Shown: piece after piece, positions 1 to 3,092 of the stretch
How the letters are laid out: each line of letters starts with the position of its first letter
Position numbering within the stretch: the stretch's first letter is position 1
Assembly (NCBI GenBank): GCA_026702615.1
Contig: JAPPBY010000017.1
Coordinates: 1-64,000, forward strand
Direction of reading: 5' to 3'
Source: Chloroflexota bacterium
GTDB lineage: Bacteria; Chloroflexota; Dehalococcoidia; Tepidiformales; Tepidiformaceae
DNA: 64,000 nt
The notes under the pieces: model-generated
Database searches by the model: none
Told to the model about the DNA's origin: nothing
What the model saw: only the letters and a program-made list of their open reading frames with translations
Made by a program: the position numbers and the translations under genes

Positions 1-412
1 CGTGGGCCCGCTCGAGGTCGAACTGGAGGAGGCGATCCATGACGTTGGCACGCAGGGCACCCCCCATCGTGTCGTGGGGGAAGAAGAAGCGCCGATAGAT
101 GCTCGTTATGTACTGTTCGTCGAGCACGAGGTGGGTGAGGTACCCGGCGACGAAGGCGCGGGTCTCCTCGTTGAGGCGGGCGGGGTCGGCGAGGCGCCCG
201 TGCGCCTCGAAGAAGCCCGCGACGGAATCCTGGTGCTCGAAGACGGAGAGGTCGAAGAAGTGGGTCGTGCGGCGGTCGGCACGGGTAAGGATACGGATGT
301 CGGGGGCCGTTGCGCCCAGCAGGTAGTGCCCGGACTCGGGGGAGAGTGCGTCCTCGGGGAGGGCCTCGCCGAGCCTCCGGGCGAGGATCATGTGGAGGGT
401 GATGGGCGGCAT
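1..412 (-). CDS. Zinc-dependent phospholipase C-like protein (N-terminal part, cut by window edge)
   Basis: The reverse strand gives an open frame from the ATG at 412 that runs off the window edge (137 codons visible). It begins MPPITLHMILARRLGEAL and contains YLLGATAPDIR and GYLTHLVLDEQY. The 'LLGaxaPDi' block and the later 'TH..lDe' block are typical of the zinc-dependent phospholipase C / S1-P1 nuclease fold (PF00882-like), where His and Asp residues bind zinc. In bacteria these proteins are often annotated only as putative metal-dependent hydrolases, so the substrate is unknown. The start codon shares one base with the stop of the upstream hisG gene (TGATG arrangement). This suggests translational coupling and makes it the third gene of a hisZ-hisG-hydrolase operon. 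The C-terminus is not visible. Confidence 0.7.
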   Translation of the reverse strand, partial: MPPITLHMILARRLGEALPEDALSPESGHYLLGATAPDIRILTRADRRTTHFFDLSVFEHQDSVAGFFEAHGRLADPARLNEETRAFVAGYLTHLVLDEQYITSIYRRFFFPHDTMGGALRANVMDRLLQFDLERAH

Positions 413-1878
413 CAGGCGCCTCCCTGGGCCCCCTGCGCCACCGCTTCGGCCTCCCCGGCAGCGGCAGCGCGAACGCCTTCGCGGAGCCGTTCGAGGAGCA
501 TGTCGAGCAGGTCACGGCGGGAGGTCCGGGGATTCGTGGCGGCGATGACGCAGTTGGTGGAGTCGAGGAACGGGTCGAGCATACGGAGGTTGTTCACGCG
601 CAGGCTGGTACCGGTCTCGGTGCCCTCGACGAGGATGTCGGCATCCTCGGGGACAAAGGCCTCGCTGGCGCCGGCGATGGGGATGATGGCGGTGTGGGGG
701 AGCCGGAGCTCGCGCGCCCACTCCTCGGCAAGGCCGGGGAACTCGCTGGCGATGCGCACGGGTCGACCGAGGCGCGACCAGATCGCGAGCGCTTCCTGCG
801 TGGTCTCGGCGGGGAAGTCGTTATGGACGACGGGACCGATGCGGTAGCGGCTGCGGCGCAGGTCGAGGGCCATCTCGACGGGGGAGCCGGGGAAGAAGGC
901 GAGGTGTTCGCGCAGCCGGTCGACGCCGCTCACGGCGATATCGAAGGCGCCCATCGCAACAAGTCCGGGCATGTCCTGGGGGCGCACGACCTTCACCTCA
1001 ATGCCCTCGATGGGAGAGGTGGGGCGACGCACGAAGTCGCGTTCGCCGTAGCCATCGAAGGCGAGCCCCGCATCGGCAAGGGCGGCGAAGGTGTGCCGCT
1101 GGGCGTGCCCGTCGGGAAGGGCGAGGCGAAGCACGCTCGTATCGCGCGCGACGCGGCCGAGAGGCACGTCGCTGGCGCGATCAGGCAGGGTCAGGGCGGC
1201 CTCGCTTGGGACGAACGCCGGCGTGAGCGGCTCGACGACGGCACTGCAGTCGCGCGTGCGGAGGGAGTCGGCGTTCGCAACGACGGCGACGCCGCCGTGG
1301 AAGAGGCGGTGGAGCGGTACGAGGCCAAGCGCCTCGACGCCGGCGGCATCGGGCGCGGCGACGACGGCGAGGTCGGCATCCTCGGGCGGGTAGGCCTCCA
1401 CGGAGCCGTAGAGGTCGAGAAGGGTGTAGCGGGGCAGGCGGAGGCGGGCGGCGAGGAGGTCGGTGAGGTTAGGGAGTTCCGTCGCGAGGCGGACACCGTC
1501 GAGGGAACGGGGGTTGGGGACCTCGCCGGGGGCGAGCCCGGAGCCGGGAGCGGCGCACAGCCAGACCTCTGTCGCGGGTCCAGGCAGGGCTCCCACGCGC
1601 ACGACCTGCTGTCCGGGGAAGCGCGCCTGCAGCTCGGCCACCCAGACGTCACTGCAGATGCCGAGGTCGTAGTTACCGAGGGCGACCTGGATAGGGATGT
1701 CACGTTCGCGGAAGACGCGGAAGCGGAAGCCGCGGTCGTTTACCTCGGAGCGGAGGAGGCGGGAGCCAGCCTCGTAGCCATCCATGACGAGGCCATGCGA
1801 GGCAAGCAGCTCGCCCACGGGCTCGCGCAGCGAACCGGTCGGCACGGCGAGGCCGAGCGGGGCTCCGGGGCTGCTCAT
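412..1878 (-). CDS. hisG: Tandem-domain ATP phosphoribosyltransferase (HisG-HisG fusion)
   Basis: Family role: first step of histidine synthesis, joining ATP and PRPP to form phosphoribosyl-ATP in the cytoplasm. Short HisG proteins are about 210 residues and need HisZ; this one is 488 residues and holds two HisG-like halves. Half 1 (about 8-235) has the family landmarks RERDIPIQVALGNYDLGI (57-74), RLATELPNL (130-138) and GSVEAYPPEDADL. Half 2 (about 249-450) has VVRPQDMPGLVAMGAFDIAV (297-316), RIASEFPGL and the PRPP-loop segment DILVEGTETGTSLRVNN (414-430). At the matching place half 1 reads DLAVVAAPDAAGVEALG, so its PRPP loop is lost. Half 2 is probably catalytic and half 1 structural or regulatory. 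The ATG overlaps the hisZ stop by 4 bp (ATGA), so the two are coupled. Confidence 0.8.
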   Translation of the reverse strand: MSSPGAPLGLAVPTGSLREPVGELLASHGLVMDGYEAGSRLLRSEVNDRGFRFRVFRERDIPIQVALGNYDLGICSDVWVAELQARFPGQQVVRVGALPGPATEVWLCAAPGSGLAPGEVPNPRSLDGVRLATELPNLTDLLAARLRLPRYTLLDLYGSVEAYPPEDADLAVVAAPDAAGVEALGLVPLHRLFHGGVAVVANADSLRTRDCSAVVEPLTPAFVPSEAALTLPDRASDVPLGRVARDTSVLRLALPDGHAQRHTFAALADAGLAFDGYGERDFVRRPTSPIEGIEVKVVRPQDMPGLVAMGAFDIAVSGVDRLREHLAFFPGSPVEMALDLRRSRYRIGPVVHNDFPAETTQEALAIWSRLGRPVRIASEFPGLAEEWARELRLPHTAIIPIAGASEAFVPEDADILVEGTETGTSLRVNNLRMLDPFLDSTNCVIAATNPRTSRRDLLDMLLERLREGVRAAAAGEAEAVAQGAQGGA

Positions 1879-3092
1879 TTGTGCTGCAGCACGAACTGCA
1901 CCACCTCGTCGAGGGTGGCGCGGTCGAGGGAGGAACCGGAGGACGAGGCGGAGATGCCCTCGGGGCCGACGATGAGGCGGATAGAGGCATCGCGGGCGTC
2001 GCCAAGGGCGGCGGAGATCCCGTGGCGGTGCAGGGAGCTGGCCAGGCGGAGGGCGCCGGCGAGGCCTGCCTCGCGCTCAGCGACGATGGCAACGGAGGCG
2101 CTGCGGGAAGGCGCGTCGGCGAAGTGGCCCGAGAGCCGGTCGGCATCAAGGGCGAAGCCGCAGGCGCTCTCGGGCGCGCCCGGACCGGCGGGCTGGTAGC
2201 GCCCGCCGCGTCCCCAGGCGCCACCCTCGCCGCGCAGCTCCCAGGTAACGCCGGAGTAGTAATCGAAGTCGAATGGCAGGGTGAAGTCGATGGCGACGGC
2301 GCGGCCAGTCGCGACGAGCGCGGCGGCAACCTCTCGCAACTCCTCCAGGGGGGCGGCGGCGCCGGGGAGGCCGGTGCGCGCCAGCGCGATCAGGTTGTCC
2401 ACGAGGGCGAGCTCGCCCGAGCCACCAAGCGCCGCCTGAACGAAGGCGAGCGCGGCAGGATCGCCGGTAAACGCGCCCTGGACGGCCGCGAGCCCGTTCC
2501 CGGCGACATCGTCGAGAAGGGCGCGGCGGGCAAGCACATCGGTGAGGCCGGCGGCATCGACAGCGGCGCGGGCAACGCCGGCGTGCGTGAGGCGGAGATC
2601 GACCGGCAGGGAGAGCGCCGCGAACGTGTCGGCGGCGACGGCGAGCACTTCGAGGTCACCGACGACGGGCGGGGCGCCGAGGTACTCGAGACCGCACTGC
2701 CAGTCCTCCCCCTCAGCTCCGCGGAAGACGCTCTGGACGTAGAGGAGACGCGCGGGCGGCTCAATGCCGGCGTCGGCAGCGGCGCGGGCAACGGGGATGG
2801 TCGAGTCGTAGCGGAGCATGACGCGTTCGCCGCTCCAGCCGTCCCAGTCGAGGAAGGTGTAGGCACCGGCGAGCATCTCCGGTGAGAGGGCGCCGGCGGA
2901 GGTGAAGAGGCTGTAGCTCTCGACCGTCGGTGTGCGAATCTCCTCGTAGCCCCAGTGCCGGGCAACCTCGCGGAACGCGTCCTCGACGTGGCGGAAGGCG
3001 CGCATCTGCTCGGGGAGCAGATCACGCATGCCGCGGGCACGCGGGACGGGGACCGCGGAGGGGGTCGCAACAGGGGTTACCTGGTCGGGCAT
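1875..3092 (-). CDS. hisZ: ATP phosphoribosyltransferase regulatory subunit HisZ
   Basis: Encodes 405 residues starting MPDQVTPVATP at the ATG 3092. The body resembles histidyl-tRNA synthetase catalytic cores: GMRDLLPEQMRAFRHVEDAF near residue 22, then GYEEIRTPTVE, a motif-2-like VMLRYDSTIPVAR, and FDFDYYSGVTWEL followed by GGRYQPAG. Proteins of this size that lack the anticodon-binding domain and sit beside hisG are HisZ, the allosteric partner needed by short HisG. The longer upstream open frame lacks family similarity and was not used. The stop overlaps the hisG ATG. Together with the duplicated HisG this suggests an unusual holoenzyme stoichiometry. A true histidyl-tRNA synthetase is less likely because of the length and the hisG neighbour. 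Confidence 0.85.
   Translation of the reverse strand: MPDQVTPVATPSAVPVPRARGMRDLLPEQMRAFRHVEDAFREVARHWGYEEIRTPTVESYSLFTSAGALSPEMLAGAYTFLDWDGWSGERVMLRYDSTIPVARAAADAGIEPPARLLYVQSVFRGAEGEDWQCGLEYLGAPPVVGDLEVLAVAADTFAALSLPVDLRLTHAGVARAAVDAAGLTDVLARRALLDDVAGNGLAAVQGAFTGDPAALAFVQAALGGSGELALVDNLIALARTGLPGAAAPLEELREVAAALVATGRAVAIDFTLPFDFDYYSGVTWELRGEGGAWGRGGRYQPAGPGAPESACGFALDADRLSGHFADAPSRSASVAIVAEREAGLAGALRLASSLHRHGISAALGDARDASIRLIVGPEGISASSSGSSLDRATLDEVVQFVLQHK

Follow-up and report, generated by a model that had tools for sequence, protein, structure and literature searches.

Near the start of the window (the whole stretch of DNA analysed, 64,000 nucleotides) lies a hisG gene confirmed to encode one chain of 488 residues with two HisG folds, here termed half 1 and half 2, only the second of which carries the PRPP-binding loop. 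Ordinary HisG is a dimer, each active site of which is completed by an arginine of the partner, and, although its allostery has been studied thoroughly, the two sites related by the dimer axis normally change together. In a naturally fused pair either half can be mutated by itself, which makes it directly testable what the cross-dimer arginine does and how HisZ acts on it. We regard it as fairly probable that the protein is a covalent, asymmetric HisG pseudo-dimer with one active site, located in half 2, to which half 1 would contribute R40 in trans, HisZ still being the partner. One of two active sites would then have been lost throughout the lineage, and this loss would have remained stable while the class diversified. 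The family is HisG itself, and two unequal HisGs in one chain were not found described in the open-licence literature searched.

Two HisG folds in a single chain

Residues 1-233 and 234-488 were submitted separately to Pfam model PF01634 (cut-off 25.5 bits), and both scored above the cut-off: half 1 matched over residues 57-209 at 37.8 bits and half 2 covered profile positions 1-157 at 86 bits. With TIGR00070 half 2 reached 96.9 bits and half 1 63.7 bits, the latter below that model's cut-off of 75.75. A profile built from 38 half-1 sequences retrieved only HisG chains from the PDB, with 20 different sequences among them and a best E of 1.2e-18. The full chain, modelled by AlphaFold2 from 38 aligned tandem chains, gave a pLDDT of 92.7 and a pTM of 0.88, so that the halves are confidently placed relative to each other in the model. 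In a structure search with this model HisG chains aligned to half 2 (Z 15.3-18.1), and half 1 was hence folded and searched separately. Alone, it was modelled with a pLDDT of 88.9 and a pTM of 0.86 and matched 35 HisG entries at Z 17.7-21.2, the first non-HisG structure being Thi5 at Z 10.9. Since each half passes the Pfam model and matches solved HisG chains, the tandem duplication proposed in the preliminary description of this DNA is borne out. A whole-genome search (genome 95% complete) found HisG in two places only, both within this single frame. The features of the locus are listed in the table.

Features of the tandem hisG locus, with positions in the window
Feature	Positions	Strand	Evidence or remark
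Tandem hisG, whole gene including stop	412..1878	minus	ATG start, 488 aa; Pfam and TIGR00070 matches
Half 1, HisG fold without PRPP loop, residues 8-221	1216..1857	minus	Profile, alignment and model evidence
R40 codon, half 1, equivalent of P. arcticus Arg56	1759..1761	minus	Alignment; R in 149 and K in 4 of 157 chains; Arg56 role from passages of PMC9734150
APDAAGVEALG, residues 175-185, half 1, at the expected place of the PRPP loop	1324..1356	minus	Alignment
Linker, residues 222-249	1132..1215	minus	12% mean identity among relatives; model
Half 2, HisG fold with PRPP loop, residues 250-470	469..1131	minus	Profile and structure matches
D256-G257-H258, half 2, in place of the short-HisG K-G-R motif	1105..1113	minus	H258 in 157 of 157 chains
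R284-R285-P286, half 2, remodelled Arg56 loop	1021..1029	minus	R at 284 or 285 in 155 of 157 chains
R299, half 2, equivalent of P. arcticus Arg73	982..984	minus	157 of 157 chains
PRPP-binding loop, half 2, residues 418-425	604..627	minus	157 of 157 chains
HisZ-like protein, 405 aa from the chosen ATG (open frame to 3590)	1875..3092	minus	PF13393, TIGR00443
Next gene, start only (contig ends here)	2..412	minus	TGATG coupling to hisG

Compared with half 1 modelled alone, pLDDT in the full chain rises by 14 for half-1 residues 151-160, by 26 for residues 161-170 and by 4 to 6 per block for residues 31-50, as if these residues packed on half 2; the greater number of aligned columns could also contribute. 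After half 2 the model has one predicted helix only (residues 455-486), and not the C-terminal regulatory domain of long-form HisG. The long form (E. coli, M. tuberculosis, C. jejuni) has the same catalytic fold, at Z about 17-18 to half 2, but combines one catalytic unit with a regulatory domain in each chain, whereas the second unit of the tandem is another HisG fold. With the short form (HisGS plus HisZ, as in P. arcticus, A. baumannii, T. maritima and L. lactis) the tandem shares the HisG fold, the lack of a C-terminal regulatory domain, an adjacent HisZ, the PRPP loop in half 2 and, as R or K in 153 of 157 chains, the equivalent of the dimer-crossing Arg56 in half 1. It differs in having two HisG units per chain, one of them without the PRPP loop, in the replacement of Arg32 by His in half 2 and in its predicted single active site per pair; where short forms have one catalytic unit of about 200-230 aa per chain and two identical subunits per dimer, the two units here are unequal. 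Short-form enzymes are HisG4HisZ4 hetero-octamers that HisZ activates and histidine inhibits.

Occurrence in the class and origin

The suspicion that the arrangement might occur across related uncultured Chloroflexota proved well founded. A HisG match was present in 356 of 393 genomes of the same class (Dehalococcoidia, by record titles); about 244 of the 356, counted by eye, have the tandem, either complete or as contig fragments, and about 112 have single HisGs, while an alternative count by E-value gap gives the tandem in about 243 of 338. The tandem is the majority form of HisG in its own class. In a survey of 400 genomes of the phylum, the full-length matches among those listed all fall in this class; the matches listed for other classes span about 190-250 residues and lie on half 2. 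Among 52 genomes of other classes, hand-picked from that survey and searched with the Pfam model, 46 bear HisG and none has two HisG matches in one frame; one of them (G416) has two matches on two separate contigs. The named records that carry the tandem, found with search patterns derived from the protein itself, are Chloroflexota MAGs, mostly titled Dehalococcoidia, and the tandem is also carried by one-contig genomes (1.4-2.1 Mb) of family f14.

After 13 partial matches had been dropped, the collection comprised 199 full tandem frames, from which the removal of 42 near-copies left the 157 chains used for the alignment; a smaller set of 65 chains was obtained by removing 34 near-copies from 99. 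Every third chain of the latter (22 half 1s and 22 half 2s) was placed in a tree together with 20 single HisGs from hand-picked places and two PDB sequences. In this tree, which is unrooted and in which half 1 is long-branched, the half 1s and the half 2s each occupy one side of a branch (support 100/100 and 99/96), a topology that fits a single duplication predating the divergence of the sampled lineages. Within the family to which the window belongs, two genomes (G118 and G259, at loci L124 and L132) have, in addition to the tandem, a single HisG that belongs to another lineage, and other relatives in this family have a single HisG only, which together suggests replacement.

Tandem duplication and fusion of a histidine-pathway gene has precedents, for passages of PMC7284861 propose that gene elongation in HisA, HisF, HisB and HisD predated LUCA, and describe the internal similarity of the remaining his enzymes analysed there as insufficient. 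The tandem HisG is likewise a duplicated and fused pathway gene, but, as far as searched, it is confined to one class.

Active-site residues and the probable pairing of the halves

All 157 non-redundant chains have the PRPP motif, scored as [DE]xxx[ST]Gx[TS], in half 2 (E-G-T-E-T-G-T-S in the window), and none has it in the C-terminal part of its half 1, which agrees with the earlier reading of an intact loop in half 2 and of APDAAGVEALG at its place in half 1. A relocated half-1 loop was not found in this C-terminal part in the 157 chains; the chain possesses the loop of a HisG through half 2, and half 1 by itself does not. The equivalent of E163 (E406, half 2) is likewise present in 157 of 157. 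At the Arg32 position half 2 has His throughout, and half 1 is mixed (D in 60, R in 53 and others). P-D-G-H is nearly invariant in half 2 where short HisGs have K-G-R, a charge change in the catalytic half. By alignment, the PRPP apparatus lies in half 2, and half 1 retains one of the two trans arginines. The unequal halves and the distribution of the motif lend support to the earlier proposal of one catalytic and one loop-less half, with a probable change of symmetry.

That half 1 is degenerate, as also proposed, holds for its PRPP loop and not for the rest of it. Thirteen of its columns are invariant among 38 sequences, E82 is found in 38 of 38, and Q64, Y70 and E134 are near-invariant among the 157 (156, 156 and 147, respectively). 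In the 65-chain set half 1 has a mean pairwise identity of 43%, half 2 of 51% and the linker of 12%. dS could be measured in four close pairs and was saturated in a fifth; in the four, dN/dS is 0.074, 0.081, 0.106 and 0.153 for half 1 and 0.054, 0.045, 0.053 and 0.138 for half 2. Half 1 is, to judge from these substitution rates, under strong purifying selection.

In P. arcticus, according to passages of PMC9734150, Arg56 reaches across the dimer interface from its own HisG subunit to the PPi of the PRPP in the partner subunit, and passages of PMC10998830 describe Arg73 as reaching the ATP gamma-phosphate of the adjacent subunit. With the register of the alignment fixed by the R56A structure (entry 7z6r), the Arg56 equivalent in half 1 is R40, which is R or K in 153 of 157 chains and H, S, C or G in one each. 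At the corresponding place half 2 has lost about three residues and has R-R-P instead. The R-x-Y context of this position in half 1 is also seen in 15 of 20 single HisGs (counted by eye).

According to the mechanism that we consider fairly probable, a single ancient duplication would have fused two HisG partners into one chain. Half 2, having kept the PRPP-binding loop, would be the catalytic half; half 1 has lost its loop and its own site should therefore not bind PRPP, but it retains R40, which it would offer to the half-2 site. In this picture, as we infer it, the halves would pack as in a normal dimer, whether inside one chain or by exchange between two; R40 would act on the half-2 site, and the usual HisG4HisZ4 would give way to a (HisGG)2(HisZ)4 complex. 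Each pair of HisG folds would thus have a single active site, with HisZ still as partner. In favour of this mechanism are the distribution of the PRPP motif and of E406, the conservation of R40, the association of positions 42 and 425 described below, the confident placement of the halves and the pLDDT gains in the full-chain model, the low dN/dS of both halves, the his operon context and the finding of no other HisG in the genome. A more far-reaching version, in which the class makes its histidine with an obligately asymmetric enzyme whose silenced half provides the trans arginine and has converted its own pocket into a regulatory site acting jointly with HisZ, seems doubtful to us.

Several findings count against a fused pair with half 1 acting in trans. 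The strongest is the distribution of the Arg73 equivalent: all 157 half 2s have R there but only 48 of the 157 half 1s do, and a simple model in which half 1 serves half 2 predicts the reverse; that half 1 supplies both canonical trans arginines is thus ruled out for Arg73. Half 2 has arginines of its own near the Arg56 position, the four half 1s with H, S, C or G tell against the role of R40, and the replacement of Arg32 by an invariant His in half 2 finds no explanation in a fused pair.

The arginines of half 2 are what a self-sufficient homodimer would need; 155 of 157 chains have one at 284 or 285, and all have R299. They are congruent with an ordinary symmetric dimer with two sites, formed by the half 2s of different chains, in which half 1 would be an outside scaffold or a HisZ-docking domain. 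We consider this arrangement unlikely, though worth weighing, because the canonical Arg56 position and its R-x-Y are kept in half 1 while half 2 lacks about three residues there, because the AlphaFold2 model of the chain holds the halves together, and because half-1 position 42, two residues after R40, covaries with position 425 in the half-2 PRPP loop. The combinations at 42 and 425 are Y with T in 132 chains and L or M with S in 25, with no mixed case among the 157. Of 380 columns that change three times or more, no other two are perfectly associated, and this is also the top DCA pair. Each position has four changes, and two independent pairs lie on well supported branches (sign test p 0.5), and Y with S occurs at the equivalent positions in three of 20 single HisGs (by eye). 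Covariation was dropped as proof of contact because so few changes cannot make the sign test significant. In the DCA list overall, within-half pairs are not visibly enriched, so most DCA pairs reflect noise or ancestry.

The invariance of R299 in half 2, although the half-1 site that it should face has no PRPP loop, would be accommodated somewhat differently if half 1 had ceased to bind PRPP and become an allosteric site where a nucleotide or histidine binds to tune half 2, R299 completing the half-1 pocket in the manner of Arg73 in normal dimers. Half 1 has invariant or near-invariant residues of its own (Q64, Y70, E134 and E82), but they could be structural, the ligand site is putative, and HisZ, where passages of PMC9734150 place the histidine site of the short form, is present in 96 of 97 loci; we judge this explanation improbable, slightly more so than the half-2 dimer. 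Finally, an assembly error or a decaying fusion in one genome is practically ruled out by the 199 full frames (157 non-redundant), the well supported separate groups of half 1s and half 2s and the low dN/dS.

HisZ and the operon context

The start of the tandem hisG overlaps the stop of the HisZ-like gene by four bases (ATGA), and its own stop overlaps the start of the next gene (TGATG). The HisZ-like product scores 135.9 bits with PF13393 and 136.1 bits with TIGR00443, below the latter's cut-off of 271.65. A HisZ frame was found directly upstream, ending at most 120 bases from the tandem hisG start, in 96 of 97 tandem loci, the exception (L045) being a contig that starts inside hisG. As in the short form, the HisZ partner is thus encoded alongside, and the HisZ-independence suggested in the preliminary description is not upheld.

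Two loci (L022 and L040) have the gene order hisZ-hisGG-hisD-hisC-hisB. In the relative L004, which is 98% identical, the order is hisZ-hisGG-x-hisD, where x encodes a protein of 252 aa (L004:6467-7225) that weakly resembles zinc-dependent phospholipase C (Zn_dep_PLPC, 25.7 bits, cut-off 26.8). The partial gene at the beginning of the window is the counterpart of x and is coupled to hisG through its overlapping start. Elsewhere in the same genome HisI and HisA/HisF lie side by side. PF01503 (HisE) has two weak places there (22 bits), within one frame of 271 aa (C17:72529-73110) that is perhaps MazG and no convincing HisE. Three loci (L118, L119 and L129) contain single HisGs (open frames of 255, 343 and 445 aa), each immediately preceded by a HisZ-like frame; these represent a different HisG lineage that is paired with HisZ as well.
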